Positions 8,670-54,420 of a DNA stretch of 64,000 nt are shown here, one piece after another. This stretch comes from Rhodococcus sp. ABRD24 (GTDB taxonomy: Bacteria > Actinomycetota > Actinomycetes > Mycobacteriales > Mycobacteriaceae). The stretch is taken from assembly GCF_004328705.1 (NCBI RefSeq), contig NZ_CP035319.1, positions 3,038,001 to 3,102,000 of the forward strand. Reading direction: 5' to 3'. Position 1 is the stretch's first letter; each line of letters opens with the position of its first letter. The notes beneath the pieces are model-generated. The model was given only the letters and a program-made list of their open reading frames with translations, was not told the origin of the DNA and ran no database searches. The position numbers were made by a program, and so were the translations under genes.

Positions 8670-8675
8670 CCAAAT

Positions 8676-8712
8676 GCCCCTCACCTGCTGTGCAGGTGAG
8701 GGGCAACTTTTT
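8676..8712 (+). terminator. Intrinsic terminator after tRNA-Ser
   Basis: GCCCCTCACCTG (8676-8687) and CAGGTGAGGGGC (8693-8704) form a perfect 12-bp stem with a 5-nt loop, followed by AACTTTTT. A textbook Rho-independent terminator for the tRNA transcript. Confidence 0.92.
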
Positions 8713-8927
8713 GCCCACATGTTGATTCTCCACAGCTGCATCGAGTGTGTCGGCCACCGCAGTCAGGTCACCGTCGAACAGGTCCGTGCAGACATCGAGG
8801 GTCATGGTCGCGGACGGGTGTCCGAGCATCTTCTGGGTTGTCTTCACGTTCGCCCCTGCGGATACCGCAAGCGATGCGGCTGTATGCCGACTGAGCGCTC
8901 CCGCCTACACCTCCTCAGCGGGGTGCG
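8693..8927 (-). pseudogene. Tyrosine-recombinase (phage/ICE integrase) C-terminal remnant
   Basis: Translating leftward from about 8890 gives RHTAASLAVSAGANVK then KMLGHPSATMTLDVCTDLFD, the C-terminal box II region of tRNA-targeting integrases. The catalytic Arg and His of the box survive (codons 8887-8889 and 8884-8886), as does LGH. The catalytic Tyr after TLDV is Cys (TGC, complement of 8788-8790), a one-base change from TAC. An in-frame stop lies just upstream and no N-terminal domain remains. The reading frame then runs on through the terminator and the tRNA antisense strand. Non-functional relic of the element that entered tRNA-Ser. Confidence 0.85.
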
Positions 8928-9079
8928 TGAGGCGCTCGACTGTTTGCGATGGGAGCTGCAGCTCGCTGGCGGGTGCTGAGGTGTTTGGTCTAGAAGCATT
9001 CGGGTGATCTCGCAAACCGGGCGGTCGACTTCGTGTTTAGATGTTGCGGGCCAATCGCACATCTTTTGGGGGAGTCACC

Positions 9080-9727
9080 TTGTCCGGATTCTTCAGCCTC
9101 GTGGGCGTCGTTGCGCTGATTATTGGCGTCATCGCGCTGTTCAGGGGTCGTCTTGGGTGGGCCCGAATCACGGGCCGCAAGCCAGCCGCTGCGGTCACCG
9201 CGGGCGCCGTCGGTTTGATGATCATCGGTGGCACGCTCGCTCCCTCCCCGGAATCTCCGGAGTCTGAGCAGGTCCGAGTCACGCGGTCGCTCACACCTAC
9301 CGCGACATCGACTACCACGACTACTGAGCGACCAACGACTACTACTGCCACGACGACGGTCGAGGCGCGACCTACAACGACAAGTGTTGCGCCTGCGCCG
9401 ACTTCGATTCCATCTGCGGGCGCATTGGTGGCGCCTCTGGTTGCCCCGCCTGCGCCGGCCGTTGTCGCACCCGCACCCGCACCTGCACCCGCTCCGTCGC
9501 CCGCTCCCGCTCCGGCTCCCGCGCCATCTGGTACAGGTGGTAGAACGAGCGGCGGCGGTTGGGGCTGCGGCGACGGCTACTACGAGAACTCCGCGGGCAA
9601 CTGCATTAAGTCGCCTGGCTCAGACGCGTCCGGGGCATCAGCGAAGTGCAAGGACGGCACTTTCAGCTACAGCCAGAGCCGAAGGGGAACTTGCTCAGGC
9701 CACGGCGGCGTCGCCGTCTGGTACTGA
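9080..9727 (+). CDS. Secreted/membrane-anchored DUF3761 protein with Pro/Thr-rich stalk
   Basis: 215 residues from TTG 9080. Two N-terminal hydrophobic segments (FFSLVGVVALIIGVIALF; AAVTAGAVGLMIIGGTL) are followed by a Thr/Pro/Ala-rich stalk of about 100 residues, including a poly-(AP) run. The C-terminal cysteine module is CGDGYYENSAGNC plus CKDGTFSYSQSRRGTC and GHGGVAVWY, the DUF3761 signature. The stalk should span the cell wall and expose the module; function unknown. TTG 9080 has GGGGGAG five bases upstream; the in-frame ATG at 9041 has no ribosome site. First intact gene inside the tRNA-Ser island and a likely cargo gene. Confidence 0.8.
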   Translation: MSGFFSLVGVVALIIGVIALFRGRLGWARITGRKPAAAVTAGAVGLMIIGGTLAPSPESPESEQVRVTRSLTPTATSTTTTTERPTTTTATTTVEARPTTTSVAPAPTSIPSAGALVAPLVAPPAPAVVAPAPAPAPAPSPAPAPAPAPSGTGGRTSGGGWGCGDGYYENSAGNCIKSPGSDASGASAKCKDGTFSYSQSRRGTCSGHGGVAVWY

Positions 9728-9743
9728 CCGACCGAACGTGCAG

Positions 9744-9765
9744 GCCCCGCCGAACTCGGCGGGAC
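9744..9765 (+). terminator. Hairpin after DUF3761 gene
   Basis: CCCGCCGA (9746-9753) pairs with TCGGCGGG (9756-9763), a compact 8-bp GC stem 19 nt after the stop codon. There is no clear T-run, so termination is likely but not textbook. Confidence 0.6.
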
Positions 9766-9864
9766 CTTCATTCGGGTCAGTCTTCCTCTGATCCCGCATC
9801 AGATCGGACTCATCCAGAAGCGAAGGTGGACAACTCCGTTGATCCGTAGGGGACAGTTGGAGTT

Positions 9865-10383
9865 TCACAGGTTGGCGCAGATGTCAGCGGCCCAGTTGTC
9901 GATGTCGTGCCAGTCGCGAGCATCACCGTAGTGACCACCCATCATCCGAAACACGATTCGGCCAGTCCCGGGCCAATCGCCAGGAGCGATCGCCCCGGCG
10001 AAAAAGCGATGATCGCGCACGCGTGCCGTTGATCGCAGTGTCGCTACGGCACGGGGTTCGGGAGTCGCCCGGCGCAAACCCCGCGCCAGAAGTGGCGACA
10101 GAAACGTGCTGGTCGTTCCCACCGAGGACACCGAAAACGCCCAAACAGTTCGTCCGCGCAGATCCGTGCTCAGTCGCTCGATCGCCTCACTGGCCTCGGT
10201 GAGCCACTGTCCGTTGTGGATCGCGCTTCCGAACACGCATGCCCGATAGCCGGCTACCGATGTCGTCTCGCCCAGCGGGCGAATGTCCACGTCCTCACCG
10301 GACCGCTTGATCGATGCTGTAATGGCCTCAGCTACACCGCGAGTCGACCCATTGGCCGTCGCGTAACCCACCAGTACGGCCAT
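9865..10383 (-). CDS. Flavodoxin-domain protein (HemG/flavodoxin_5-like)
   Basis: 172 residues. The N-terminus VLVGYATANGSTRGVAEAI is the FMN phosphate-binding loop, followed by ACVFGSAIHNGQW, the second flavin-contacting loop of the flavodoxin/HemG-like group. Expected to bind FMN and carry electrons in the cytoplasm; the partner is unknown. AAAGGG lies about 10 nt before the ATG at 10383. Proteins of this type occur in actinobacterial low-oxygen regulons, but no DosR-type box was identified. It lies within the tRNA-Ser island, opposite in direction to its neighbours. Confidence 0.85.
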   Translation of the reverse strand: MAVLVGYATANGSTRGVAEAITASIKRSGEDVDIRPLGETTSVAGYRACVFGSAIHNGQWLTEASEAIERLSTDLRGRTVWAFSVSSVGTTSTFLSPLLARGLRRATPEPRAVATLRSTARVRDHRFFAGAIAPGDWPGTGRIVFRMMGGHYGDARDWHDIDNWAADICANL

Positions 10384-10591
10384 GTGGTGAAGCCCTTTCG
10401 ACGGGTAGTCGCCGGCGCGACTGCGCCCTCGACGTCACGACCACGTTGAAAGTGAGAGCCTACGCCTGCAGGAGGCCGAACCGACCCGAGTTGAACTGCT
10501 ACCGCTGGCCCGACGAGGCTGGTGTGACGCTCGTCGACGCAGAAGTATCACGCTGACGAATCGAGTCGGTGGCAACAGTCAACGCAGAGGG

Positions 10592-10734
10592 GTTTTCGAT
10601 GGCAGGCAGGAACGGCTCGATCACGCAACCGCGAGGATCGCCGTGGATGCGGCGCTCGACGCCGCTCGGCGGGACGGCAGCAGTGTAAGCGTCGCCGTCG
10701 TCGATGCGCGGGGACACGATCTGTTGGTGGGTCG
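10592..10734 (+). pseudogene. GlcG/HbpS-like gene, N-terminal half
   Basis: The frame starting near 10592 reads QERLDHATARIAVDAALDAA then SSVSVAVVDARGHDLLVGRG, the opening of the GlcG/HbpS (haem-degrading-like) family. Similarity stops abruptly near 10730, where VirD4-type sequence begins in another frame. The missing C-terminal part is found on the same strand at 14943-15106. No start codon with a ribosome site was found. Assignment rests on family pattern only. Confidence 0.55.
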
Positions 10735-11131
10735 CGGTACTCGACGAGGCGACCAACACGGTGATACTCGAGTTGCTTCCGGGCCAGTACAGCCACTTCG
10801 GCGGCCGCGGCGGTGGAAACAGGTCACAGAGCTGGCAGGAGCGGTCGATCTTGACGGACGATGATCTCGCGACGCTACCCAAGGACAGAGCCATCGTGTC
10901 GTTCCCTGCGAACCGGCCTGTGCTGATCAAGAAATGCTGGTGGTGGAAGCCGATTATGCCGACACCGTCCGAGACTCGATCCGCCGCTACAGCGCCAGTC
11001 CAGCGCTTGCTGAACTGCTACTTGCCGGCGCCGGGGACGATAACGACTACGACGATCCGGAGCCGATCTCCGACGCTTCGGCAGGTCCCCGAAAGTCGGT
11101 CCAGCTGGTTCTGGAGCCAGGTTGTGATTGA
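10728..11131 (+). pseudogene. VirD4/TraG-type conjugation coupling ATPase remnant
   Basis: Starts at VAVLDEATN, the Walker B region of VirD4-like coupling proteins, continues with the family's LPGQYSHFGGRG, then jumps straight to the C-terminal SQSWQERSILTDDDLATLPK and ANRPVLIKKCWWW. Roughly a hundred residues normally between these blocks are missing. After WWW the frame must shift to continue as ADYADTVRDSIRRYSA and run to the stop at 11131. An internal deletion plus a frameshift make it dead. It shows that the island once contained conjugation genes. Confidence 0.65.
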
Positions 11132-11139
11132 TACCGATC

Positions 11140-11952
11140 TCAGTTGATCGCGCAGGCCACGGGGTGGTGCCTGTGGCTGCATCGGGCAGCGTACTCGACC
11201 GGGGTCAGGTAGCCCAGGCTCGAGTGACGGTGACGGGTGTTGTGCTCGTGCTTGAAGTCGCCGATGACGACGCGGGCCTCGAGCAGGTTCGTCCAGTGGT
11301 TCCGGTTCAGGCACTCCCGTCGTAGGCGGTTGTTGAACGTTTCGATGTAGCCGTTGTTCCACGGCGTACCCGGACGGATGTACGACAGCCCCACCTGTGC
11401 GGCGCAAAATGATTGCAGCGCTTGGTAAATGAACTCCGACCCGTTGTCCATCCGCAGGGCCATCGGCGGACCGCCCGCTGCAGCGAAACACGCCTCCAAC
11501 TCGCGGGTGAGCCGCTCGGCGGTGATCGACCGCTCGACGATGTTCAACAGCGACTGCCGGGTGGGGGTACCGTCCTGCACGAAGTGCGTGGGGGAGGTTC
11601 ATCGAGCAGCGACGCGATCTTCACCGACTTGCCGTCGACAGTGGAATCGAACTGGAAGTCCAGGGCCCACAACACCTTCGGCGCATCGGCCGGGGTCGTC
11701 GGGTACGACGAGCAGCCGACACGTGTGCGGGCGCTGTGGACCCGCCGCTGCAGGCCCTCCTCCTTCCACAGGCGATGCACCGTCTTCTTGTTCACGCCCT
11801 GGTGTTCGTCGAACCGCAACGCCGCCCAGGTACGCCGGAACCCGTGGCACGGATTCGTCTTCGAGTACGTCCGCAGCCAGTAGGTGGAGCGGGCGAGCCC
11901 GACCGCTTTGCACGCGAGCCGTTCCGACATGCTCAGCACGTCCTCGAAGCAT
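11140..11952 (-). pseudogene. IS3 transposase OrfB, frameshifted
   Basis: DDE integrase-core transposase in pieces. The upstream piece has SERLACKAVGLARSTYWL, HGFRRTWAALRFDE and WALDFQFDSTVDGK with the first Asp. The downstream piece has ALRMDNGSEFIYQAL (second Asp), PWNNGYIETFNNRLRRECLN (Glu) and HNTRHRHSSLGYLTPVEYA. The frames change near 11580-11600, where about 30 bp of unrelated sequence follows SLLDE. A further shift near 11945 separates the start SPDATRRAVDMLR from the rest. All DDE residues are present, but no intact protein can be made. Confidence 0.8.
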
Positions 11953-41823: not shown

Positions 41824-41848
41824 GTGCGGGCGCAGTATGGCCGAAGAA

Positions 41849-42223
41849 TCAGCGCCACCCACGTCTCTCTCCCTCGAGGAGGACGATAGCGGCAGCAAAC
41901 CCTCCGTCGTGGGTGATCGTGAGGTGGGGCTTCGAGACTCCGAGGACGTGTGCACGCGCTGCGACCTTCCCGGTCAGGTGGAGGGTTGGCTGACCTGATG
42001 CCAAAGGGATCACTTCAACGTCACCCCAGGGCAGGTCACCGCCGCCCAGCGCCTTGGCGAGTGCCTCCTTGGCCGCGAAGCAACCAGCCAGCGACTCGAC
42101 CGACCGATCGAGTTCTGAGGGTCCGAACAGTCGGGGTCCGAGGATCGGAGTTCGCTCGAGTGCTTTCTTCAAGCCTTGAACTTCGACGAGGTCGATCCCG
42201 ATGCCGATCATGTAGGACATCAT
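41849..42223 (-). CDS. acpS: Holo-[acyl-carrier-protein] synthase (AcpS-type PPTase)
   Basis: 124 residues. Transfers phosphopantetheine from CoA to a Ser of carrier proteins. Mg/CoA ligands Asp11 (GIGIDLVEV) and Glu53 (FAAKEALAKAL) are present, as is the C-terminal LTITHDGGFAAAIVLLE. It is the last gene of the seven-gene cluster and overlaps the PhyH stop (ATGA). Its presence beside an acyl-carrier-like domain (44465-45196) suggests a dedicated activating enzyme rather than the housekeeping AcpS; the latter should lie near fatty-acid synthase genes. Confidence 0.9.
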   Translation of the reverse strand: MMSYMIGIGIDLVEVQGLKKALERTPILGPRLFGPSELDRSVESLAGCFAAKEALAKALGGGDLPWGDVEVIPLASGQPTLHLTGKVAARAHVLGVSKPHLTITHDGGFAAAIVLLEGERRGWR

Positions 42224-43257
42224 CGATGTCCTTGTTCGACGGGTCCGTAGTCGCCGTCGCTCCAACGGCGCAGGTAGGCCTCGGCGACAGCACGGGCGTA
42301 TACGGGACGGCCAGGAAGCGGCCTGCCGGCGGCGGCCAGGCGAGCCCGTGTCTTTTCCCACCGTGTCCGCCACTCCTCGCCGGAGGTGACGACCGACTCG
42401 GGGTGGGTCACCGAGCGGAGCGGGATCGAGGGGAACCACGGCCGGTCACCCGGCCGGGTGTGGTCGAAGAATCGGAGGTCGAAGCTCCAGCGCGGGAAGT
42501 CCGAGATGTTCGGCGCCGAGGCATGAGCGACATGCTTGTGCAGGATGATCACGTCGCCGAACCTGGCCGGCAAGGTCACCGCCTTGCGGTTCAACTCCGC
42601 ACGGAGCTCGGGACCTACTGGCCACGGCACGCTATCGGGCACGTGGTGGCTTCCGGGCAGGAAGAGTAGGCATCCATTCTCTGCCCCAACGTCGCGGAGC
42701 GGGATCCAGACCGTGATCAGTGGGGTGTCCATGGACTCCTCCACCATCGTGATGCCGTCGGTGTGCCACGGTGTCTCGGCCGCCGTATTGGCCGCTGAGC
42801 GTCCAACGTGGCTCGTGGTGGCCTTGGCGGCCGGCAACTTCAGTCGGATGTGCGCGTTGCCGCTGACCGAGATCTCGTTGCCGATGAAGGACTCGATCGT
42901 GTCGAGGAGGTGGGGTGTGGAGATGAGGCGGAGCAGCCCGGGTCCGACGTGGAACAAGGCGTCAGACGTGATCGCGGAGAAGGGGCTGTGCGGCAGGCAG
43001 ATGTCCAACTCGGCGAGCAACTCGGTGTCGAAACCGTGGACAGCGCTGAGCATGAGCAGGTCCCGCTCGAAGTCGCCGATGAAGCGGTTCAATACTTCGG
43101 GGGCGATCAGGCCGCGGCCGCACCACCGTTCTGCTCGCTCACGAAGGAGATCTGCGAACTCTTGGCGTACGGCAACGAAATCGCCGGGCCGAAGTACGCC
43201 CGGCACTCTGACGACGCCCTGCTGGTTGAATTGATCGATCAGCTCTTGAGTGATCAT
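42220..43257 (-). CDS. Phytanoyl-CoA dioxygenase (PhyH)-family Fe(II)/2-oxoglutarate oxygenase
   Basis: 345 residues. The iron facial triad is visible: His165-x-Asp167 (PWHTDGIT) and His245 (HKHVAHAS), with Arg262 (FDLRFF) as the probable 2-oxoglutarate ligand. ENGCLLFLPGSHHVPDSVPW is the usual family segment. Would hydroxylate, desaturate or halogenate a substrate, possibly carrier-bound. The absence of a Gly at the Asp position argues against a halogenase. Overlaps acpS; 38 bp after the adenylating gene. Exact substrate unknown. Confidence 0.88.
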   Translation of the reverse strand: MITQELIDQFNQQGVVRVPGVLRPGDFVAVRQEFADLLRERAERWCGRGLIAPEVLNRFIGDFERDLLMLSAVHGFDTELLAELDICLPHSPFSAITSDALFHVGPGLLRLISTPHLLDTIESFIGNEISVSGNAHIRLKLPAAKATTSHVGRSAANTAAETPWHTDGITMVEESMDTPLITVWIPLRDVGAENGCLLFLPGSHHVPDSVPWPVGPELRAELNRKAVTLPARFGDVIILHKHVAHASAPNISDFPRWSFDLRFFDHTRPGDRPWFPSIPLRSVTHPESVVTSGEEWRTRWEKTRARLAAAGRPLPGRPVYARAVAEAYLRRWSDGDYGPVEQGHR

Positions 43258-43295
43258 TCTTCCCTCCTGTTTTGGTTGGCGAGGATCGCGGCGCC

Positions 43296-44468
43296 CTATG
43301 CGGCACGGTTCGGGACCGAGTAGGGCTCGGGGATGGTCGGAATGAACTGATTCGCCTTTGTCACGCGGACCTTGCCCATGGGCGACCAGTCGAGGACGAC
43401 ATCGGTCCGGACGCGGATCGGCACGATGTCGATGCGGTCGCTATGCAGCCGTAAGTGCTGATGAAGATCACCGGCGTCGTCTCCACCCCGGGCGTCGACG
43501 ATCAGTTCGATGTGCTCGCCCCAGAGCGGGTCATCGATCGGAGTCGTCACGAAATTGAGTCCGGGAAGAAGCTCACGAAGTTGGCCGTCGAGGTGATCGA
43601 GGTCCACCCAGCTTCCTCCCGGCTTCACCCGGCGGCTGGCTCGACCGACGATGCGCATGGTCCCCCTGTCCATGCCGCAGATGAGGTCGCCTGTCGTTAC
43701 CGCGTTTGCCGGTGCCGCCGACTCGACACGGCGGCCGACGCGGGCGCTGCAGACCGTGAGTAGGTGGATGGCATCGTCGAGTTCGCGACCATGTACGGAA
43801 CTCTGGTCGTTCGGGACCACTTCGACGTCGGGGACGACGACCCATGGCGTCTCGCGCATGGTCGTGAACTCGCGCGCAGCGACGACGCCTGTCTCCGAGG
43901 CGCCGAAGAGCTCCACGCCGGTGATGCGGCGACCGCGACACTGCATCGCCTGCACGGTCTCGTCGGCGAGTCTGGGCAGTCGAGCCCCGGCGTGGACAAC
44001 CGTGACCGCCGGATCCTTCGACGGTGTGTTCCTGCTCTCGAAGAAATCGGTCAACGTCGCCGGCAGGGTGTTCCACGACGGCGGAATCGAGAAGACCAAG
44101 GGCTGGTTCCCGACGAGCGGGAGCCGGCGCGTGCCCCACCGGTCGAACCGGTACGGGATTTTCAGTTTCGCGGCGACGAGGATCGCGACGTATCCGTACA
44201 GCGATTCAGGCGGGACGGTGGAGTAGACGGCATCGTGGTCGTCGCCGAGCACGTCCACCGTGGTGGCCGCTTCCAGAGACAGCTGCCGCGCATCGCGTGC
44301 CCAGGTGACCGGGCTGCTCGAAGTTCCGGACGTGGTGAATCCCACCTCATCGACGCTGGCGAGCAGGTGCTCGAGTTCGCCGTCGAGCAGGTGGCGGAAG
44401 TCGGTGGTCCAAACCGAGCCGAGATTGGACGCCGACTCGAGTGCCACCGCCGTGGCCACGGTCGTCAT
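43296..44468 (-). CDS. Short adenylate-forming (ANL-type) enzyme
   Basis: 390 residues, about 100 fewer than typical acyl-CoA synthetases. P-loop FTTSGTSSSPVTWAR (44-58), A5 motif ELFGASETGVVAAR (186-199), TGDLI/RIVGRASRRVKPGG hinge region and the terminal GKVRVTK with the A10-like lysine. The Lys of the usual TSGTTGxPK loop is missing. It likely activates a carboxylate as acyl-AMP and may load the carrier domain of the neighbouring protein. ATG overlaps that gene's stop (ATGA), so the two proteins are made together. Confidence 0.75.
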   Translation of the reverse strand: MTTVATAVALESASNLGSVWTTDFRHLLDGELEHLLASVDEVGFTTSGTSSSPVTWARDARQLSLEAATTVDVLGDDHDAVYSTVPPESLYGYVAILVAAKLKIPYRFDRWGTRRLPLVGNQPLVFSIPPSWNTLPATLTDFFESRNTPSKDPAVTVVHAGARLPRLADETVQAMQCRGRRITGVELFGASETGVVAAREFTTMRETPWVVVPDVEVVPNDQSSVHGRELDDAIHLLTVCSARVGRRVESAAPANAVTTGDLICGMDRGTMRIVGRASRRVKPGGSWVDLDHLDGQLRELLPGLNFVTTPIDDPLWGEHIELIVDARGGDDAGDLHQHLRLHSDRIDIVPIRVRTDVVLDWSPMGKVRVTKANQFIPTIPEPYSVPNRAA

Positions 44469-45196
44469 TCCACACCTCCCGCCAGCGTGGTGAGGGTGTC
44501 GACCAGGTGGCCGAGAGTGACTGTGTCGCCGAACATCTGCTTGACCCGCTCGGTGCCGACGTCGAGGGTGTTGAACGGCAGGCCCAGCCACGACTCCAGG
44601 TTGGTAGCGATCTCCGCCTTCGCCAGCGAGTTCCACCCCATTGGGTTGGGGACCAAGGCGAGGAGCGTGCTGTTCGGCAGGGCCGAGCGAACATGCCCTC
44701 CCCAGAAGCGCGCCAGTAGCTCGCGGACGTCCTCCTCGACCGTGTCGGCCCTCGGCTTCGCTCCGGTGGGCATGTCCTCGGCGGCGACCGGGGCGGCGAC
44801 CGGGACGGGTCCGCGCGGTATCCGCGTGGCTCCCATCGACACCGTGCCGATGTAGGCGTCGACGGCCTCGCGCGGAACGAAGTCGATCGCTACATTCGAC
44901 GACCCGACGCCGAGGTCCTCGAACACGCGGACGATGGTGCCGACGAACTTGTCCCGGAACTCCTGGCTGCGGCGAGTCGAGATGTAGACCCGCAGGAGCG
45001 CGAAGTCGTGCTTGCCGAGCACTTCGTCGAGCGACTTCTGCCCGGCGTAGATGAGCGTGTGCTGTATCGGGCGGAACTCGGTGGACACATGCTCGGCTGA
45101 CATCCCCTCGTCAGCGAACAAGCTGGTGATCGCGCCCTGGACGCGGCGGTGTTGCTGCTGGTTGTGGATCGATGTGACAACTTCGATTCGTGGCAT
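44465..45196 (-). CDS. Tautomerase-acyl-carrier-like fusion protein
   Basis: 243 residues in two parts. Residues 1-120 look like a 4-oxalocrotonate/MIF-type tautomerase: MPRIEVVTS, where Met removal would expose the catalytic Pro, then FALLRVYISTRRSQEFRDKF and GVGSSNVAIDFVPREAVDAY. Residues 153-240 resemble an acyl carrier domain: EEDVRELLARFWG, then MGWNSLAKAEIATNLESWLG with Ser190 at the phosphopantetheine position (Asn before it instead of Asp), then TLGHLVDTLTTL. A Pro/Ala linker joins them. AAAGGAG precedes ATG 45196. I know of no described tautomerase-ACP fusion; the domain calls are by pattern. Confidence 0.65.
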   Translation of the reverse strand: MPRIEVVTSIHNQQQHRRVQGAITSLFADEGMSAEHVSTEFRPIQHTLIYAGQKSLDEVLGKHDFALLRVYISTRRSQEFRDKFVGTIVRVFEDLGVGSSNVAIDFVPREAVDAYIGTVSMGATRIPRGPVPVAAPVAAEDMPTGAKPRADTVEEDVRELLARFWGGHVRSALPNSTLLALVPNPMGWNSLAKAEIATNLESWLGLPFNTLDVGTERVKQMFGDTVTLGHLVDTLTTLAGGVE

Positions 45197-45222
45197 GGCT
45201 GTTTCTCCTTTTGACTTCTCCA

Positions 45223-45984
45223 TTAACGAGTGCCGCCGTTGACGCCCAGGTTGGCTCCGGTGATGAATGAGGCCTCGGCGGAAGCGAGGAAAGCGACGGC
45301 GTCGGCGATGTCGTGGACCGTCCCGGCACGGCCGACCGGAGTCTCGGCGATCAGTGGGCCGGTGATCTCCGGTCCCCAGGCGCCGGTGAACTCGGTGTCG
45401 GCGATGAAGCCGGGGGCAACGGTGTTGACGGTGATGCCCTGCTCGGCCAACTCGCGGGACAGCCCTAGCGTCAGGCCGTGGACGCCGGCCTTGGCAGCCG
45501 CGTAGGCCGTTGATCCTGGGCGGCGCCCGCCCGTGACGGCCGCGATGCTGGAGATGTTGATGATCCGTCCGCCGTTGCGGCGCAGGAACGGAGCGAACGC
45601 GAAGCTCGTGTAGGCGGCGGAGGTCAGGTTGAGGAGGACTTGCTGGTCCCACAAGTTGACGACATCCGCGTACTCCATGGATGTGAGCACGCGGTCGGGG
45701 CGAGCCCCTGCGCAATTGATCAGGATGTCGATCTCTCCGTGACGCTCCTTGATCTCGGCGGCGGCCTCGGCCACCTGCTCGGGATCGGTCAGATCGGCCG
45801 GGTGAACCGTGGCCTTGCCGGGGAGATCGGCAGCGAGCTCATCGAGACGGTCCTTGCGGCGGGCGATCAGGGCGAGGTCACCGGTCGGCGACATCGTGAT
45901 GGCGATCTGCTTGCCGATACCGCTGCTGGCGCCGGTCACGACGATGACGCGGGAATTGCCGGACGGGATGTTCTGGGTGGTCAT
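45223..45984 (-). CDS. Short-chain dehydrogenase/reductase (FabG-like)
   Basis: 253 residues. NAD(P) loop TGASSGIG (17-24), NCAGAR (90-95), catalytic Ser145/146, Tyr161 and Lys165 (STAYAAAKAG), C-terminal ITGANLGVNGGTR as in FabG. Likely reduces a 3-oxoacyl or other ketone, possibly on the carrier domain encoded 26 bp downstream. Third gene of the cluster. Confidence 0.9.
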   Translation of the reverse strand: MTTQNIPSGNSRVIVVTGASSGIGKQIAITMSPTGDLALIARRKDRLDELAADLPGKATVHPADLTDPEQVAEAAAEIKERHGEIDILINCAGARPDRVLTSMEYADVVNLWDQQVLLNLTSAAYTSFAFAPFLRRNGGRIINISSIAAVTGGRRPGSTAYAAAKAGVHGLTLGLSRELAEQGITVNTVAPGFIADTEFTGAWGPEITGPLIAETPVGRAGTVHDIADAVAFLASAEASFITGANLGVNGGTR

Positions 45985-46034
45985 GTTCTTCTTCCTCTCG
46001 ATCGTTGCCCCGGAACGGTTCCGGGATGTCGGTG

Positions 46035-47771
46035 CTACAGGCTGAGATCCGGGAGCCGGGCGCCGTCAGCCGCGTTGGCGATGAGGGCGGCGAGCGCGGT
46101 TGCCAGCAGGCCGCCACCCTCTGAGCTAGCGGGACTCCAGGCCACACCGTTCGGGTGCACGGTCAGGTGGTTGAGCCAGCTGCGGGCGGCAGGCAAGCTG
46201 TCTTCGTCTCCCATCGACTGATGGGCAACCAGCACCGCATAGGTGGTGGCGAGGTCCGGCACCGCACGCGTACTACGTCGAAACGCACCGTCGACACGCA
46301 GACCCCGGATGATGCTCAGGCATGGGGTGATGTCGATGGACGCGTCCGATGCGCCGGTGATGGCATTCGCGGCGCGGACCAGATTGGCGGTAGTCACGGC
46401 GTCAACTGGTCGACTGTCATCGAGACCCTCGATAGCGTTGCCCACCCAGTTGGCCAGGGCGCCGAGACCGGGGAAGCTACCGAGCATGTCGGTGCGGGCC
46501 AAGGTCGCGACCACCGCTGCAGTCGAGACCGGCTCGCTGACCCGCCCGGCCCAGCGGCCGAATCCGCCGTCGAGATTCTGCATTCGCGACGCCCAGGTGA
46601 GCAGCGCGTCGGCGTTGTAGGAGATACCGGCCGCGTCGAGCGCGGCGGTCGCCCACTGGGAGGTGCGTGCTTCAGCCCCACGTCCCGGCATGTACGCGAA
46701 GCCGTCGTCATCCGGCATCATGCAGGACGCGATCCAATCGGCCGTCTGGCTGGTGCCGTAGCCGGCGAGCAGTGCTGCCGACGTCGACAGCACGTCTCCG
46801 GCGTCGGTGACGTTGGTATACGTGTAGCCGCCGTGCGGAAGCTCGCAGGATTCGACGAACGAGACGACCCGAGGTGCCAGCGTGGCGAGTCGGTCCGGGG
46901 CAACGACCCGTAGTACCCGTACCGCCTGCCTGGTTGCCCAGACATCCGCTTGCGTGTGGTAGGCCGGTCCGCGACGGAAACCGCCGGTGGCTTCGTCGAA
47001 GTGGGCCATGACGAACTCGATCACGGAGGTCCGGTTCGGGATCGGGATCTCGAGGGCGTCGAGGACGGCCACCGCCTCGCCGGTACCCCACATACACGGT
47101 GCGCTGTGCGAGTCGAGCGCAAAGCCCCCAGCATCGATCTGCTGGCCGATCACGAATGTCGCGAGCGCCTCGATGTCGGCGTAGCCGGCGAGAAGGGGAA
47201 CGGCAGCAACCTGCCGGAGGGCTTCGACGCAGAAACCAGTTGCGCGTACGTCCCCTGAACCGCGACGGGCCTGCTCGGGCGTCCAGGTGATGCCACCGTC
47301 GGAGGCTTGGGCAGAACCGATCCAGCGAGCCAGCGGCGCCTTCCTCACGGACGTCGGGTCGTAGCGCGCTTGGGCAAGCGCGGCGAACCCCGTCGCCCAG
47401 GCGTCAGGTTTTCCTCCAGGGAACATGGCGTAACCGCCGTTCTGCTCCAGCGAAGACAAAAACGATGCCCAGGCCGGCGGCGCCACGTACCCGAGGTTGA
47501 AGAGGATGCCCGACCCGTAGGTCGTCGACCAGGCATCCTCCTGCGCTCCTATGGTCTCGCCCATGCCCCGAGCCGAGGCTCGGCTGAGCACAGCGCGGGC
47601 GGTCATGAGGTGTGATGCCGGTCGATGCTGAATGTCCGAAAGGGCGGCCGTCGCGCTGTGCGAAGCGAACAGATCGAGCTGGTTACTGCGGAATCCACCG
47701 CCGGTGACCGCCAGATCCGCAAGGTCTACCGCATGTCGGGGCGCATCCGCGCGGAGCGAGGTCGGGATCAT
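46035..47771 (-). CDS. Prenyltransferase/squalene-oxidase-repeat (alpha/alpha-toroid) protein
   Basis: 578 residues built of repeats typical of terpene cyclases and protein-prenyltransferase beta subunits: LEQNGGYAMFPGGKPDAWAT, QASDGGITWTPEQ, DEATGGFRRGPAYHTQADVW, ELPHGGYTYTNVTDAGDVLS, NLDGGFGRWAGR. The class II cyclase acid motif DxDD was not found; the closest are PDDDGF and GDEDS. No signal peptide. It may bind or fold a polyprenyl chain, act as an unusual cyclase, or be a scaffold. ATG overlaps the upstream ligase stop (ATGA), so it belongs to the same pathway. Confidence 0.75.
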   Translation of the reverse strand: MIPTSLRADAPRHAVDLADLAVTGGGFRSNQLDLFASHSATAALSDIQHRPASHLMTARAVLSRASARGMGETIGAQEDAWSTTYGSGILFNLGYVAPPAWASFLSSLEQNGGYAMFPGGKPDAWATGFAALAQARYDPTSVRKAPLARWIGSAQASDGGITWTPEQARRGSGDVRATGFCVEALRQVAAVPLLAGYADIEALATFVIGQQIDAGGFALDSHSAPCMWGTGEAVAVLDALEIPIPNRTSVIEFVMAHFDEATGGFRRGPAYHTQADVWATRQAVRVLRVVAPDRLATLAPRVVSFVESCELPHGGYTYTNVTDAGDVLSTSAALLAGYGTSQTADWIASCMMPDDDGFAYMPGRGAEARTSQWATAALDAAGISYNADALLTWASRMQNLDGGFGRWAGRVSEPVSTAAVVATLARTDMLGSFPGLGALANWVGNAIEGLDDSRPVDAVTTANLVRAANAITGASDASIDITPCLSIIRGLRVDGAFRRSTRAVPDLATTYAVLVAHQSMGDEDSLPAARSWLNHLTVHPNGVAWSPASSEGGGLLATALAALIANAADGARLPDLSL

Positions 47772-49129
47772 CGGATCACCTCGCGACGAACTCGCGTCCG
47801 AGCCCACGACTTCACGACGCCGGCAGTACGCGCGATCGGCGATACCGCATCCACGACGGCGGTGTCGACCCCCAGCTTCGTCTCGATGGTCGCGGCGATA
47901 GTGCTCCCTGCCGGCGAAGAGCCTGGCAAGAGGCTGATCTCGATGCGTGTCAGATTGTCATCGAGATCGGCGACGAGCTGGTAGTCCTCGACCGCCGGGT
48001 CGGCGAAAACCGTCTGCTCGATCCCGGCCTGCTCGATCCAGTGGCCGTGGATCCGGATGCGGTCGTCCAGGCGGCCGAGCACTTTGAAGGCCACGCCGTC
48101 GAGGCCGCACGGGCAGGAGAGGGCATCGACCCGATCGCCCGTGACGTATCTGATCAAGACAAAGTGGCGGAAGAGCGTCGGTGTGACGACCAGCTCGCCG
48201 CGGACGCCGGCCGCCAGCGGCACGAGCGAGCCGTCCTCGATGAGGACCTCGTAGGTACCGCGGCCGACCATCGAGTGAAGGTTGCCGAGACGGCACCCGG
48301 TTGCGATGGTGCCGCACTCGGTGCCGCCGAAGGAGCCGTCGACCACAAGTGCCTGCCACGAACGGCCCAAACGGCGCCGCATGGCCGGGGTGTTGGTGGC
48401 CCCCAACGTCAGCAACGTCGTTGCAGTAGAGCGGATCTCGTCGAAGACGCCGAGGGCGCGCAGTTCGTGTTCAGCGTCGAGTAGAACGCCGGGCGTGGCG
48501 ATGATCACGGTCGGGCTGAACTCCGTCACGGCCTCTGCGAACTGCATCCAGTTGGGGCCAGAAGGTGTGTAGGGCATCAGACGGGCTGTGACAGCGTCGA
48601 GGGTGTACATGATGTGTTCGACCAGGAGGCCGGCAGCGGAGCGGTTGTGGTCAAGGAGGCTGGCCACGCGATGCGGGCCGTTAGGCAACAGCGTCGACCA
48701 GCGCTCGGCGATCCCCTTCGCGTTCTCCTCGACCTCGTCGCGTGAGCGGTAGACGACCGTCGGGCTGCCGGTGCTACCCGAGGTGCCGACACGCATCGCC
48801 GGCGTGTGTAGCGGCGTCATGTAGCGCGCCGGGGCGGCCTTGACATCCGCGGCGGACGTGAGCGGCAGATCCTCGAAGCTGGTCCCTGAGATGCCGGTGT
48901 AGGCGTCGGTCTCCAGTGCGCGATCGAGGTGTACCTCGACGTCCACCGGACCGTTCTGCGAGCGCGCCGTCTCGGATTCGGCATCGTGCCCCCTCGGCGG
49001 CACCTTCGGCGACGCACCGTCGATCTTCGGCTGCGCAACGGCTGCGGTGACACGCCACCTGGTATTGCCGGCGAGTGCCTCGATGTGCGGCGCAACCGGT
49101 TTGGTCGCCGGAATCTTCCTGAGCATCAT
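47768..49129 (-). CDS. PaaK-like phenylacetate-CoA ligase-family adenylating enzyme
   Basis: 453 residues. P-loop TSGSTGSPTVVYRS (116-129), A5-type FGGTEC (267-272), RYVTGDRVDALSCPCG with paired Cys as in PaaK-like ligases (GD at 331-332), hinge LGRLDDRIRIHGHW (351-364). It activates an aromatic or acyl carboxylate as AMP ester and couples it to CoA or a carrier. The first 100 residues are poorly conserved. First gene of the minus-strand cluster; GAGAGAGG precedes ATG 49129. The promoter lies in the 196-bp divergent region shared with the plus-strand operon. Confidence 0.82.
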   Translation of the reverse strand: MMLRKIPATKPVAPHIEALAGNTRWRVTAAVAQPKIDGASPKVPPRGHDAESETARSQNGPVDVEVHLDRALETDAYTGISGTSFEDLPLTSAADVKAAPARYMTPLHTPAMRVGTSGSTGSPTVVYRSRDEVEENAKGIAERWSTLLPNGPHRVASLLDHNRSAAGLLVEHIMYTLDAVTARLMPYTPSGPNWMQFAEAVTEFSPTVIIATPGVLLDAEHELRALGVFDEIRSTATTLLTLGATNTPAMRRRLGRSWQALVVDGSFGGTECGTIATGCRLGNLHSMVGRGTYEVLIEDGSLVPLAAGVRGELVVTPTLFRHFVLIRYVTGDRVDALSCPCGLDGVAFKVLGRLDDRIRIHGHWIEQAGIEQTVFADPAVEDYQLVADLDDNLTRIEISLLPGSSPAGSTIAATIETKLGVDTAVVDAVSPIARTAGVVKSWARTRVRREVIR

Positions 49130-49325
49130 CTGGACCTCTCTCTGGTCGGGACTCCGTTGTAGCGAGCGTGGTGTGACCAGAAAGTTCGGTGGCGATGGTG
49201 GGCTCGTGCCGCGTCTGTGACGCTCGTTCGAGATGAATCCGTGATTGATCACATTTCTGTCACCGAGCACTCGTACGCTCGGCCCCAAGCGTGTGGAGGG
49301 TTCGCGAGGAGAGGAGCAGGCGTCG

Positions 49326-50777
49326 GTGATCAAGATCTGTACGAGCGATCCGTCTGTCCCACATCCAGCAGGGGGCACCGAGTCGGTCAAGGCGACAGCA
49401 GGCGTACTCCTACGCCTCCTGCTGCTTTCGCCAAACCCCAAGGTTCCGATTGACGGTGCCCATGTGGTCATGGGGGTGGCGAAGTCCAGCATCGGGCGCT
49501 ACGTGGGTGAGCTACGGGCAGCTTTGGGCAGCAAGTCGGTGGACCGTAAAGGTGGCTTCATGGAGTACCGCGGCGATCGGACAGCCACGGACGCGGCCCT
49601 GATCGAGACGAAGCTGAAGGTGATCAGTGCATGTATCGACGGCGCAGAAACGATCGATCGTGACCTGGCCGAGAAGATTTTTCCGGAGCTGCAGGAGATC
49701 GATCAGCTCTATGACGGCAACCCGTCAATGGGATTGTCGGGGTTTGCAATGGAGCAGGTCCCTCCGCAGCACCAAAGCTGGGCGATGGAACTCGAGGACA
49801 TCGTCTCTGAGTGGGTGCAGCACTGGAGTTCCGTTCAGCTGATGCTTGCGGACTGCCGCATGCTCATCACTCCGACGAAGCAGACTGGGCTCGACCTACT
49901 CAAGGGACTGTTCAAGATCGCCCGCGATCCGGATCCCCCGGAAGAGGTGTTTCCCCGTTTGCTCCAAGCGGCACAACTGTCCGGTGATCTTCGGCAACAC
50001 CGTAACGCGTGGGAGCTGGTTCAGTCCTTCTACCGGCAGGAGCGCATGTCCTTTCCCAAGGACCTCGAGGAACTCGCGCCGCCGAGTGCCAAGGTGGCGA
50101 ACACACCCTGGGATCCACACCGCTCCCACCCCTTGCACACCCCGCTCGAGTACGCCGAGGACGACCCGATTCACGAGATCGCCCGCGTCCTCGGCATCAC
50201 CTCGCTGTTGAAGCTGCGCGGAGAGGAAGTTGAACCCGCTGAGTGCATCGAACGCACTGAACGCCGGCTCTACTTCTCCGGCGTGCTGGCGTCGAAATGG
50301 GTGGCCGAGGCCGGTATCCGGAGCGAGTTCGATGCTCTGCTGAGCAAGCTCGATGGTGAAGAGGGTGATGTGAGGTTCCTGATCATCGATCCCGAAGGCG
50401 AGGCATATCAGCAGCTGTACCAGCTGCGCGGCGGGCGGCTGAGTGCAGACTCGGTCCCACATCTTCAGCGACTCGTGCGACGGCATCGATCGTTTCAGGT
50501 CAGGGTCGTCAACTCCCTACCGGCATTTCGGATCGTTGTGATCGACGACGATTTCGTCACCTTCTCGCCCTATGCCCTTGATGCGGAGAGATATTCGACA
50601 AGCAAGTACGGCTGGGATGCGCCCCACATCATGCTGGATCCGCTGGCCCCGTACCCGCTGTCTGAAGCGTTCCGCCTCTACTTCGAAGAACGATGGTCGA
50701 CCGCACAGGATCTGAAGCTTCCTCCGGCGCCACAACGACCGACTCCACAACAACCTTCAAGGAGATTTGTTCGATGA
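49326..50777 (+). CDS. Putative transcriptional regulator with C-terminal sensor-like domain
   Basis: 483 residues. The N-terminal 80 (TAGVLLRLLLLSPNPKVPID, MGVAKSSIGRYVGELRAALG, VDRKGGFMEYRGD) look like a winged helix-turn-helix. The middle is helical. The C-terminal 150 (VRFLIIDPEGEAYQQLYQLR, FQVRVVNSLPAFRIVVIDDD, SEAFRLYFEERW) resemble the phospholipase-D-like sensor domains without HKD motif found behind actinobacterial HTH proteins. GTG 49326 has GGAGAGGAG upstream. Its stop overlaps the next gene (ATGA). It is divergent from the seven-gene cluster, so it could control both. Family assignment is tentative. Confidence 0.65.
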   Translation: MIKICTSDPSVPHPAGGTESVKATAGVLLRLLLLSPNPKVPIDGAHVVMGVAKSSIGRYVGELRAALGSKSVDRKGGFMEYRGDRTATDAALIETKLKVISACIDGAETIDRDLAEKIFPELQEIDQLYDGNPSMGLSGFAMEQVPPQHQSWAMELEDIVSEWVQHWSSVQLMLADCRMLITPTKQTGLDLLKGLFKIARDPDPPEEVFPRLLQAAQLSGDLRQHRNAWELVQSFYRQERMSFPKDLEELAPPSAKVANTPWDPHRSHPLHTPLEYAEDDPIHEIARVLGITSLLKLRGEEVEPAECIERTERRLYFSGVLASKWVAEAGIRSEFDALLSKLDGEEGDVRFLIIDPEGEAYQQLYQLRGGRLSADSVPHLQRLVRRHRSFQVRVVNSLPAFRIVVIDDDFVTFSPYALDAERYSTSKYGWDAPHIMLDPLAPYPLSEAFRLYFEERWSTAQDLKLPPAPQRPTPQQPSRRFVR

Positions 50778-51325
50778 CTCCGTACGGCATTGTCCTGGGA
50801 CGTTTCCAGCCACTTCATCACGGCCATGTGGAGTACCTCCAGGCCGCCAAAGCTCGATGCGAGCGGCTGTTCATCGGCATCACCAATCCAGACACGTCCA
50901 AGGCGACTATCAGTGAGGCGGATGCGAAGCGCTCGCTGGCCGAGAACAACCCGTTCACATACATCGACCGTCATCTCATGATCGAACGGGCCCTGTTGGA
51001 ACTTGGATGGGATGCAGACACCTTCTGTCTGATGGCGGCTCCCATCACCGATCCTGATCGGCTTACGGTCTATCTCCCGAGCTCGGCGAAGTCGGAGTTC
51101 TTCGTGACGGTCTACGACGAGTGGGGTGAGCAGAAGGCCCGGGAGATCGCAGCGCTCGGGTACCCGACGACCACACTCTGGAGGCGGACGTACGACGAAC
51201 GATTCACCTCGGGGACGTTCGTGCGCAACGCGATCCGTGACGGAGAGCCGTGGGAGCACCTCGTTCCGTCAGGAGTTTCGAGCTACATCGCCGAGAACAA
51301 CCTGATCGATTCCCTGAGGGTATGA
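50774..51325 (+). CDS. NadM-like nucleotidyltransferase
   Basis: 183 residues. Rossmann-like nucleotidyltransferase: YGIVLGRFQPLHHGHVEYL with the HxGH ATP site (His15, His18), and TSGTFVRNAIRDGEPWEHLV, equivalent to the ISxTxIR loop. It is closest in pattern to archaeal-type NMN adenylyltransferases and related cytidylyltransferases. It joins a phosphorylated compound to a nucleotide and releases pyrophosphate. In this operon it stands between the regulator and a dikinase (ATGA overlaps on both sides), so a substrate other than NMN is quite possible. There are no NAD-synthesis genes nearby. Confidence 0.82.
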   Translation: MTPYGIVLGRFQPLHHGHVEYLQAAKARCERLFIGITNPDTSKATISEADAKRSLAENNPFTYIDRHLMIERALLELGWDADTFCLMAAPITDPDRLTVYLPSSAKSEFFVTVYDEWGEQKAREIAALGYPTTTLWRRTYDERFTSGTFVRNAIRDGEPWEHLVPSGVSSYIAENNLIDSLRV

Positions 51326-53178
51326 CCATGCTCGATCTCGCCACCCGGATTGCCGATCCCTCCATCTACGGTTGGAAAGCTCACTACCTCAGCCGTTTGA
51401 TGGAGCAAGGTTTTGTCGTCCCTGGAGCCCTCGCGCTCGCCCCCGATGAAGTACCCGTTCTGTCGGGCATCAATTCTGAACTTGCCTATGCAGTGAGGAG
51501 TTCCGGACTGGCCGAAGACACCCATACCGGCTCGTATGCAGGTCATTTCAAGACGAACCTCGGCGTCCGAGGTCTCCGTAACCTACTCGCATCCATCGAT
51601 GAGGTGCGTATGAGTGGTGCTGGCGAGATGCCTATGGGGGTAGTCATTCAGGAGATGGTCGACAGACCGATCGTGTCGGGAGTTGCATTTTCTTGCCACC
51701 CGGTCACGCTCGCCCGCGATGTAGCAGTTGTGTCCTGGGTGCGCGGACTCGGCGAGGGTTTGGTCAGCGGTACGGCGATCGGTAATGACGTCGAGGTGCG
51801 CCTGCAGGACGGCGCCGTGTCCTCGGGCGAGTGGCCTCTTGGTGTCGGACTCCTGCGCGAACTTGCAGACATCCTCCGCAAGCTCGAAGACCTCGTGGGA
51901 CAGCCTGTGGACGTGGAGTGGTCGGTCACCGAATCTGAAACACTTGTGCTCCTACAGCTTCGGCCGATTGTCCTGCCGATACCCGGCGTCACCGACCTCG
52001 ATACGGTCGGCGCGTTCGCCAGTCTTCCGGCTGGCATTGCGTCGCATAGCAAACTATGGCTCCGTTCGGAGGCGACTCGTCTGGGTGTCCCCATGGCTCG
52101 TGCCCGGGCGATCCTGGCCACCGGGACGTCGGGCATTCCAACGGTCAGTCCCTTCCTGGCGAGCGACCACTCGGCGGGGCGCAGTGTGGTACTCCTGCAT
52201 CCAGCTCGGGTCGAGGGAAAGATTGTGCGCGAGTTCACGAAAGACTGCGCGACCGACGTCGAGTTCTTTGTGCGAGGATGCCAGCGCTACGCGATTCGAC
52301 AATATCCTCCCCAAGCCGGTGCTGCTCAGTCGATTGCACGTACTCTCGGGATGGGCCTCGAGCACGGACCAGTGGCATGTGTGATCGAGCAAGAGATTCT
52401 GCACGCCTACGCGACTGGGATTCTTCGTCGAACCCCCGATGGCTACCTCGTGGAGGCTGCTCTCGGTCACTTCGTGCCCAAGGGTTACATCCAGACATCT
52501 ACCTATGCACTCACGCAAGACCTTTCGGTCACGCTTCGTGACGAAGTACCGCAAAGCAAGGCGTACCACTTCCTGAACGGCCACGTCATAGTCGAGAGCC
52601 CTCCGTACGAACAACTAGTGCTCGCGGACTCCGATCTTCAACGTCTCGTCCGCGCCATGCTGCCGATTCTTGATCGACGCCCGGCCGTTGCCTTGGAGTT
52701 CGGGCTCCTGGGAAGTGCAGGAAACGAGTTGGAGCCCTACATGATCGATGTGGCCGAGAGTGACAGCGAGGTCGACGTCTTCTCCGTAGCAGACATTGAA
52801 CGGGGAGTCGTATCGGCGGGACGAGCGATGGGTCGCCTGGTCGATCTTCGAGTGGATGCTGTTCATGACGATCTCAATGCCCACCTGTACGACACCGCCC
52901 TGAACGGCGGCGCGGCATTGGGTCCGACCGTTTACATCGCGCGCCAAGCATCGATCGACCTGTTGCCACTCGTTCGTGCTGCGCATCCTTCGAGTGGCTT
53001 CATCTTCGAGAGAGCATCACTACTCGCCCATCTGCCAGTGGTGCTCAGGGAGCGCGGGCTGGCTGCCGTCACGCTTCCAGCCAAGGCCATCGACTCGCTG
53101 ATCGATCGGGCGGATCGGCTCGCTATCAACACATATGACGAGGAGATCGTCGTCCACCAGGAGGCGTCTGAAGCATGA
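51322..53178 (+). CDS. PEP-synthase/rifampin-phosphotransferase-like dikinase
   Basis: 618 residues. N-terminal ATP-grasp domain of the pyruvate phosphate dikinase family: ELAYAVRSSGLAEDTHTGSY, VIQEMVDRPIVSGVAFSCHP, DVEWSVTESETLVLLQLRPI. A central domain of about 300 residues is unlike PEP synthase. Near the C-terminus, GFIFERASLLAHLPVVLRER aligns with the swivelling phosphohistidine domain (His in LLAHL). The PEP-binding TIM barrel is absent. The order ATP domain, substrate domain, His domain is that of rifampin phosphotransferase and implies ATP + acceptor to AMP + phospho-acceptor + Pi. Acceptor unknown. Coupled to both neighbours by ATGA overlaps. Confidence 0.78.
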   Translation: MTMLDLATRIADPSIYGWKAHYLSRLMEQGFVVPGALALAPDEVPVLSGINSELAYAVRSSGLAEDTHTGSYAGHFKTNLGVRGLRNLLASIDEVRMSGAGEMPMGVVIQEMVDRPIVSGVAFSCHPVTLARDVAVVSWVRGLGEGLVSGTAIGNDVEVRLQDGAVSSGEWPLGVGLLRELADILRKLEDLVGQPVDVEWSVTESETLVLLQLRPIVLPIPGVTDLDTVGAFASLPAGIASHSKLWLRSEATRLGVPMARARAILATGTSGIPTVSPFLASDHSAGRSVVLLHPARVEGKIVREFTKDCATDVEFFVRGCQRYAIRQYPPQAGAAQSIARTLGMGLEHGPVACVIEQEILHAYATGILRRTPDGYLVEAALGHFVPKGYIQTSTYALTQDLSVTLRDEVPQSKAYHFLNGHVIVESPPYEQLVLADSDLQRLVRAMLPILDRRPAVALEFGLLGSAGNELEPYMIDVAESDSEVDVFSVADIERGVVSAGRAMGRLVDLRVDAVHDDLNAHLYDTALNGGAALGPTVYIARQASIDLLPLVRAAHPSSGFIFERASLLAHLPVVLRERGLAAVTLPAKAIDSLIDRADRLAINTYDEEIVVHQEASEA

Positions 53179-54101
53179 AGATCGTAACGACGTACAAGAA
53201 CCCTGATCTTGACGGGGTTGCATCTGCAATCGTCTACTCGGAGTATCTAGCCAGTGGCGATGTGCTGCCGCGGTTCGCGGGCAGCCTGAACATGGAGACC
53301 CGCGGTGTGCTGGCGGAGCTCCGGATGAGCGAGCCAGGTCTGTTGGAGGAAGTGAATGGCCTTCGATGGGACGACGTCGTCTTGGTGGACTGTCATCATC
53401 GTGCCCAACTTCCACACGTCGACGATCTGACAGCCGTATCCGTCGTGATCGATCATCACCCCGATGGCGACGCAAGTGCATTTCCTCACGCGGACATTCA
53501 GAATGAGCTCGTGGGAGCGGCCGCCACGCTCGTGGCGGAACGCATCGCAGCGCGTAGTGAAGCCGGGCTCGAGGGTCTAACGGCTGAACACGCCGTCCTT
53601 CTTGCCTGTGCAATCGCTTCGAACACACTCGACTTTGCGGCACCATCGGTGACGGCCCGAGATCGCGCTTCGTTCGAGGGCCTGGTGGCGGCATCGGGTC
53701 GGGGTGCACAGGTCGAAGCACTCACCAGCAAGATGCGCATCTGGCGTCAGACGTTTCTGTCCTTGCCTACCAAAGAAGCAGTACAGCAAGACATCAAGGT
53801 GATCGACGGCTCGTTCGGCCAGATCGCCGTCTCCCAACTCGAAGCTGACGGCGCGAGCAATCTGCTCGATCGGGAGGATCTGCTCGAAAACCTGGAGCAG
53901 CTCATCGAGGAGATGGATGTCGATGCAAGCTTGCTGAGTTTGGTAGACACGGCAATGGGCACAACCACTTTGGTGACTGCGGATCCGCGTGTTCGTGAGC
54001 TGCTGATGACCCTGTCGCCTCAGGTTGTCGGCACCGTCACACTGCGTCTGCCATTCGTAGCGCTCCGCAAGACGCATGTCATCCCAGCGCTTACCCGTTG
54101 A
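53175..54101 (+). CDS. DHH-DHHA2 phosphoesterase (family II pyrophosphatase-like) with altered metal ligands
   Basis: 308 residues. DHH domain with KNPDLDGVAS (Asp11, Asp13), DCHH (72-75) and DHHPDG (93-98); the C-terminal DHHA2 domain ends LRKTHVIPAL, like the SRKKQ substrate loop of family II inorganic pyrophosphatases. Two pyrophosphatase metal ligands differ: the His before NPD is Tyr7, and the Asp of SDTL is Asn150 (ASNTLDF). It may hydrolyse PPi from the upstream nucleotidyltransferase, or another phosphate ester. Last gene of the operon; a hairpin overlaps its stop. Confidence 0.82.
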   Translation: MKIVTTYKNPDLDGVASAIVYSEYLASGDVLPRFAGSLNMETRGVLAELRMSEPGLLEEVNGLRWDDVVLVDCHHRAQLPHVDDLTAVSVVIDHHPDGDASAFPHADIQNELVGAAATLVAERIAARSEAGLEGLTAEHAVLLACAIASNTLDFAAPSVTARDRASFEGLVAASGRGAQVEALTSKMRIWRQTFLSLPTKEAVQQDIKVIDGSFGQIAVSQLEADGASNLLDREDLLENLEQLIEEMDVDASLLSLVDTAMGTTTLVTADPRVRELLMTLSPQVVGTVTLRLPFVALRKTHVIPALTR

Positions 54102-54118
54102 CGAGAGCCGTCAACGGG
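54094..54118 (+). terminator. Hairpin overlapping stop codon of DHH gene
   Basis: CCCGTTGAC (54094-54102) pairs with GTCAACGGG (54110-54118) around GAGAGCC. The TGA stop lies inside the left arm. Ends the four-gene operon. Confidence 0.75.
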
Positions 54119-54420
54119 CGTGTCGCCGGATCTCAGGTGTGAGGAGGGTTGCCGGGTTGCGGTCTGGCCGTCATCGCCCCGCTGGCGGTCTCGGTCCAGA
54201 TCCGCGAGTGCATCGTCCGAGACAAGGACGGTGCGCCCGATCCGTGGGTTCACGTCGTCAGACGCAGAATCGAGGACGGTGTCGGCCCGCCTCGATGACA
54301 GGGGCATAGCGCTGAACCCACTGAGGATGCTTCTTGTGCCCAGCCTTTGTCGGCGTGTGGGAGAGAGCTGAACCTGGGGGAGGCCTTGTCCTCGGGGCCG
54401 GGTGAGCGGACGCTCGAACT
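54119..54420. other. Intergenic stretch without recognisable gene
   Basis: About 300 bp between the operon hairpin and the methyltransferase. Short frames on both strands show no family pattern. No repeat, RNA structure or clear promoter was seen apart from what must drive the methyltransferase. Confidence 0.5.

Follow-up and report, generated by a model that had tools for sequence, protein, structure and literature searches.

How a cluster of seven genes could assemble a small molecule when it encodes no polyketide synthase (PKS) or nonribosomal peptide synthetase (NRPS) core is the question raised by a locus of Rhodococcus sp. ABRD24, at positions 41849 to 49129 of a 64,000-nucleotide stretch of contig NZ_CP035319.1 (hereafter the window). 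On the minus strand, read from 49129 to 41849, seven codirectional genes were found, all intact and without internal stops, which bears out the run in one direction reported in a preliminary description of this DNA. The favoured reading, to which a probability of roughly 0.55 is given, is that this horizontally variable cluster assembles a small molecule on a carrier domain without PKS or NRPS condensing modules, the activated pieces being joined or cyclised by an alpha/alpha toroid. Confidence is higher for biosynthesis in general and lower for the toroid step. The reading draws on observed gene content and order, a core present in several phyla, a tautomerase-carrier fusion, and the retention or loss of motifs. 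The cluster consists of a five-function core, with a short-chain dehydrogenase/reductase (SDR), PhyH and AcpS as local additions:

47768 to 49129, minus strand: PaaK-like adenylate-forming ligase, 453 aa, core gene 1 (PF00501, TSGSTG loop)
46035 to 47771, minus strand: alpha/alpha toroid lacking DXDD, 578 aa, core gene 2
45223 to 45984, minus strand: SDR reductase, 253 aa, flanked by toroid and tautomerase, outside the five-function core (PF13561)
44465 to 45196, minus strand: fused Pro-1 tautomerase (residues about 1-122) and carrier (about 150-243, Ser190), core genes 3 and 4
43296 to 44468, minus strand: short ANL ligase, 390 aa, core gene 5 (weak NCBIfam matches, motifs)
42220 to 43257, minus strand: PhyH-type iron/2-oxoglutarate oxygenase, 345 aa, accessory (PF05721)
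41849 to 42223, minus strand: AcpS-type phosphopantetheinyl transferase, 124 aa, accessory (NF000832)

Junctions and family assignments

Three of the six junctions (PaaK/toroid, carrier/ANL and PhyH/AcpS) are four-base ATGA overlaps, where four had been claimed, and the remaining three are gaps of 50, 26 and 38 bases. The 26-base gap, between the SDR and tautomerase genes, holds an AAAGGAG-like site followed by an ATGCCA start, giving the protein a Met-Pro N-terminus. Only with an alternative upstream ATG does this junction overlap, and then as TAATG rather than ATGA, a start that hides the N-terminal proline.

The family calls made earlier were upheld for ACPS, PhyH, adh_short, Prenyltrans and AMP-binding, all above their Pfam cut-offs; the tautomerase fell below (Tautomerase_3, 16.8 bits, cut-off 25.7), and neither the short ANL protein nor the carrier half matched any Pfam family, these three being supported in other ways. 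The PaaK-like protein, with an intact TSGSTG loop, matched PF00501 at 35.6 bits, and its top NCBIfam profile was BagE_FevW (NF041217), at 67.6 bits far under the cut-off of 800. The short ANL protein was identified through low-scoring NCBIfam hits (4-coumarate-CoA ligase and further ANL enzymes), its TSGTSSS loop and MGK motif, and its alignment with the short ANL proteins of relatives. In alignments with nine chosen relatives, both ligases keep their ATP-binding loops and C-terminal lysine. The SDR matched PF13561 at 172.6 bits and carries the motifs GASSGIG and YAAAK. Among iron/2-oxoglutarate enzymes an HxD motif marks hydroxylases and HxG/A halogenases; the PhyH protein (PF05721, 77.3 bits) has the metal motif H165-T-D167, reached 30.3 of 226.3 bits against a chlorinating-enzyme profile, and is thus predicted to be a hydroxylase and not a halogenase. 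AcpS, one of four ACPS matches genome-wide, scored 117 bits against the holo-ACP synthase profile NF000832 (cut-off 107), and its FAAKEALAK sequence fits (F/W)xxKE(S/A)xxK, the motif of the AcpS family. No condensation, ketosynthase or thioesterase domain was found in the seven proteins by Pfam.

A conserved core in other bacteria

Genome contigs were scanned with the wider toroid family, and the best 80 of 93 matches were kept, giving 78 loci, of which 31 were strong (L003-L033, E ≤2e-67) and 47 weak (L034-L080), the latter used as contrast only. Among the matches listed, the order PaaK-toroid-tautomerase-carrier-short ANL recurred in 27 of the 31 strong loci; PaaK stood beside the toroid in all 31 and a short ANL gene was present in 27, while neither gene accompanied any of the 47 weak toroids, several of which lie on short contigs. 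In those 27 loci toroid and short ANL are separated by a tautomerase gene (product about 125-165 aa) and a carrier gene (product about 91-111 aa); the ANL gene is cut by a contig end in one of them (L021) and frames are disturbed in two (L024, L033). In three loci without the full core (L026, L028, L030) a contig edge falls inside the toroid. The strong loci belong to Streptomyces, Kitasatospora, Amycolatopsis, Lentzea, Micromonospora and other Actinobacteria, to Pseudomonas and Pantoea and, in one case (L028), to a Melainabacteria metagenome bin. A plasmid search with the toroid returned four records, three from Rhizobium rhizogenes and one, partial, from Priestia; both Rhizobium plasmids examined, pColt5.8a and pAtK84c, hold the five core genes in the same order. 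On pColt5.8a (L081, 17751-18950) an IS256 transposase separates the carrier gene from a shortened ANL gene, and pAtK84c has no insertion there. The K84 record is plasmid pAtK84c, and agrocin 434, considered as a candidate product of the Rhizobium cluster, was dropped as unsupported.

The preliminary description had proposed a search for conserved linkage in other Actinobacteria. Such linkage is present there and is not confined to them, as Proteobacteria also hold the core, and the possibility that the genes are not co-conserved outside this genome has fallen away. Because the order recurs in other phyla, it exceeds what chance would produce. The five core proteins also show correlated pairwise identities (r 0.89-0.97 across 24 of the 31 strong loci, two Rhizobium plasmids and the window, with L021, L024, L033 and loci missing a core gene excluded), as expected if the five move as a unit; the highest correlation, r 0.97, is that of PaaK with the toroid. 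In protein searches, relatives besides the window proteins numbered 6 for the fusion, at least 30 for the toroid and at least 7 for the short ANL protein, the toroid and ANL figures being lower bounds, since scoring was limited to the 7995 and 7996 candidates with the most shared words. Genes of close relatives lie in assemblies with equal longest-contig sizes (97642, 32055, 13476, 12026 and 4253), an indirect hint of linkage and no proof of a single contig.

Around the core, other hosts carry genes for an amidase, a class II 3-deoxy-D-arabino-heptulosonate 7-phosphate (DAHP) synthase, an aromatic amino acid lyase family enzyme, an asparagine synthetase, SDR and aldo-keto reductase enzymes, ATP-grasp proteins and major facilitator superfamily (MFS) transporters (lyase and ATP-grasp named by Pfam, Rhizobium genes by annotation, the others by sequence reading and tblastn). 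As these flanking genes vary around a kept core, tailoring, and presumably the product too, differs between hosts. In L008, L013 and similar loci the DAHP synthase, lyase family enzyme, amidase and asparagine synthetase flank the core together, which suggests, for Streptomyces and Amycolatopsis, an amide derived from an aromatic amino acid. A reading of the lyase family enzyme as a tyrosine aminomutase, suggested by resemblance only, was dropped.

A proposed tethered-intermediate route and its rivals

The tautomerase half of the fusion has the MIF/cis-CaaD fold, a beta-alpha-beta double repeat (residues 2-127 compared with solved structures), and its P2, H36 and R76 are invariant in 19 of 19 aligned rows. 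When starts were chosen for the tautomerases of relatives, those followed by CC were preferred, a rule that favours Met-Pro. Independent support came from mechanically assigned starts, which gave Met-Pro at 12 of 14 loci (in the exceptions, L004 and L027, Met/Val-Pro lies inside a longer frame), and from the annotated Rhizobium start and database proteins P0001-P0006. With N-terminal proline and fold both found, the domain is assigned to the Pro-1 tautomerase superfamily, its catalysis being predicted. In the carrier half, Ser190 stands at the start of a helix (190-204) within a helical domain, and the attachment serine is present in 35 of 35 aligned rows. The half was identified as a carrier because relatives have separate carrier genes; against PF00550, that of L008 scored over the cut-off and that of L081 below it. 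The window protein (P0001) and five of its relatives (P0002-P0006) carry tautomerase and carrier on one chain, whereas the strong toroid loci have them as separate genes. This occurrence of one protein here and separate genes elsewhere is why the tautomerase probably acts on carrier-bound acyl groups.

In the proposed route, AcpS would arm Ser190 of the fused carrier, as its motifs suggest, and the short ANL enzyme would load a carboxylic acid onto it. The Pro-1 tautomerase in the same chain may then isomerise, hydrate or otherwise activate the tethered acyl group, which the SDR could reduce. The PaaK-like ligase would activate a second acid, the toroid, by elimination, would join or cyclise the activated pieces in its barrel, and PhyH would hydroxylate the product. 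A tethered-intermediate logic without a PKS or NRPS core had been suggested before; it is strengthened by the carrier serine at a helix start, the intact loops and C-terminal lysine of both ligases and an AcpS above its cut-off.

Several points weigh against this route. The joining role of the toroid is argued by elimination, and either the PaaK-like or the short ANL ligase may be the partner of the carrier; substrates, reactions, product and any complex are likewise predictions from sequence. The carrier half did not match PF00550 or any other Pfam family, and the fold comparison with solved structures covered fusion residues 2-127, the tautomerase half. Identity between the window proteins and their relatives is low (PaaK and toroid 26-34%, tautomerase 13-27%, carrier 15-23%, ANL 21-31%). 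Four of 27 readable relatives (L003, L004, L005 and L025) have a short ANL protein without GK at its C-terminus, and the role of this enzyme may therefore differ between hosts. One strong locus, L027 from Kutzneria (7953-11689), truly departs from the pattern: PaaK and toroid are there, the tautomerase is inverted and lies upstream, and neither carrier nor short ANL was found nearby. The core is also rare: with up to three candidates scored per genome, no match was found for the window toroid at E 1e-20 in 393 other genomes of the class, nor for the L009 toroid at E 1e-40 in 395 other genomes of the phylum. The fusion was found in none of 40 other related genomes, including 13 others of the genus, and searches gave no relatives of window-type toroids in genome contigs or of the fusion in viral contigs and plasmids.

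It is conceivable, and on balance rather unlikely, that the carrier pathway operates as proposed while the toroid serves the PaaK ligase as a subunit for binding or scaffolding, the join being made by PaaK itself or by spontaneous chemistry. The constant pairing of PaaK and toroid in strong loci, kept even in the incomplete L027, their having the highest identity correlation, and the rank of BagE_FevW as the best NCBIfam profile of PaaK would all fit such an arrangement, and in the BagE/FevW esters the join is reportedly made by the PaaK-type ligase itself. However, many polar residues of the toroid, among them D174, R176, R267, D276, E367, R369 and R410, are invariant in 42 sequences, suggesting an active site.

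A terpenoid or prenylated product would have the toroid act as a functional class II terpene cyclase or as a prenyltransferase, with the rest of the cluster decorating the isoprenoid or making its acceptor; this is improbable in view of the toroid itself. The protein matches PF00432 and gave a confident all-helical model of its 578 aa; its first barrel is clearly matched, resembles the beta subunit of geranylgeranyltransferase (GGTase) and is related to the class II cyclase alpha/alpha barrel fold. Prenyltrans repeats and a related barrel are shared with class II cyclases such as drimenyl diphosphate synthase and squalene-hopene cyclase, but superposition on the latter over the whole length is loose (root-mean-square deviation 11.6), and the DVDD of drimenyl diphosphate synthase (7xq4) aligns with DVWA. 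All 42 toroids have DVW at this site (DVWA in 40, DVWS in 2); DxDD is absent from the window toroid and occurs elsewhere in the sequence in two of the 42. In comparison with prenyltransferase beta subunits (RabGGTase, FTase), the toroid has roughly double the length of a single barrel and no conserved zinc-binding DxC, any one DxC being common to at most seven of the 42 and that at C226 to six. The GGTase zinc ligands D, C and His align with invariant E367, invariant R369 and Ser (profile residues 191-427), in a provisional first-barrel register. On these motifs the toroid is predicted to be neither a class II terpene cyclase nor a protein prenyltransferase beta subunit. With DVWA and without a conserved DxC, it should therefore carry out chemistry different from that of both. 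No prenyl diphosphate synthase was found among the seven genes or in the gene lists of two Rhizobium loci.

PaaK, tautomerase, SDR and oxygenase families are all found in degradation pathways, but an aromatic-acid catabolic operon in which the resemblance to a carrier is incidental is very improbable, given the attachment serine in all 35 aligned rows, the presence of AcpS, the lack, in all seven proteins, of ring-cleavage dioxygenase and aldolase families, and the MFS transporter, amidase, DAHP synthase, asparagine synthetase or ATP-grasp genes held by relatives.

A bolder and distinctly tentative proposal, which would make the toroid a new class of joining enzyme, is that the cluster represents a third type of carrier-dependent assembly, in which a toroid lacking DXDD replaces the ketosynthase or condensation domain and joins a ligase-activated acid to the acyl group of a tautomerase-linked carrier, the five-protein unit being transferable across Actinobacteria and Proteobacteria and its tailoring variable. 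If carrier-based assembly is right, the cluster would add a small, self-contained natural-product route that searches for PKS, NRPS or terpene hallmarks do not name, with a concrete core to mine across phyla and a cyclase-fold protein whose chemistry must depart from that of its relatives. The tautomerase-carrier fusion makes the idea of a tethered substrate directly testable.

Genomic setting and known systems

The cluster lies in a variable island, delimited by comparison with flanks from the same genus:

41830 to 54400, no strand assigned: variable island with the cluster, from an acyl-CoA dehydrogenase gene to a methyltransferase gene

The island measures about 12.6 kb. The same flanks are 63 bases apart in one stretch (L115), and in six others of the genus (L116-L121) the DNA between them spans about 2.4-10 kb and did not align with the island; the site is an insertion hotspot. 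Its right half holds a divergent set of four genes on the plus strand (49245-54101; GC about 0.60 against about 0.66), encoding a 510-aa protein with an N-terminus that looks winged-helix-like by eye, a nicotinamide mononucleotide adenylyltransferase-like protein, a protein with a phosphoenolpyruvate-synthase domain and a manganese pyrophosphatase-like DHH protein. Relatives of all four stand side by side on plasmid pRJH2 of Rhodococcus pyridinivorans (54-78% identity), the middle two are also adjacent on an Enterococcus gilvus plasmid, and PADLOC gave no match for the four. Participation of this set in the cluster pathway was considered and rejected, the pRJH2 neighbours listed including no toroid and the GC being lower.

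The enzymes are individually of known kinds, and the conserved combination was not found described in open-licence literature. The view that the combination was unrecognised still stands, no characterised cluster matching the core having been found in open-licence PMC articles, with a description in a subscription journal still possible. In term searches, the siderochelin paper (PMC11481915) gave no link to the core and the paulomycin paper (PMC4425429) returned nothing; for matlystatin, a putative 4-oxalocrotonate tautomerase gene (orf+3) was examined as a cluster-boundary gene (PMC5719088).

Three known systems come nearer in single features. The cis-CaaD, Cg10062 and MIF group shares with the window tautomerase its fold, Met-Pro start and the invariant H36 and R76, but its structures are mostly 10-16% identical to that domain, which is fused to a carrier here and adjacent to one in relatives. 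For bagremycin and ferroverdin, too, a small-molecule cluster includes a PaaK-type adenylate-forming ligase (BagE or FevW, NF041217), but the window PaaK scores too low to belong to that family and no toroid-tautomerase-carrier set is known to accompany those enzymes. The minimycin NRPS MinA has the domain order A-Ox-T-TE-Tau (PMC8724604), and so resembles the window fusion in having a tautomerase domain on one chain with a carrier domain; as an NRPS, MinA also contains oxidase and thioesterase domains, whereas the window cluster has separate ligases and a toroid.
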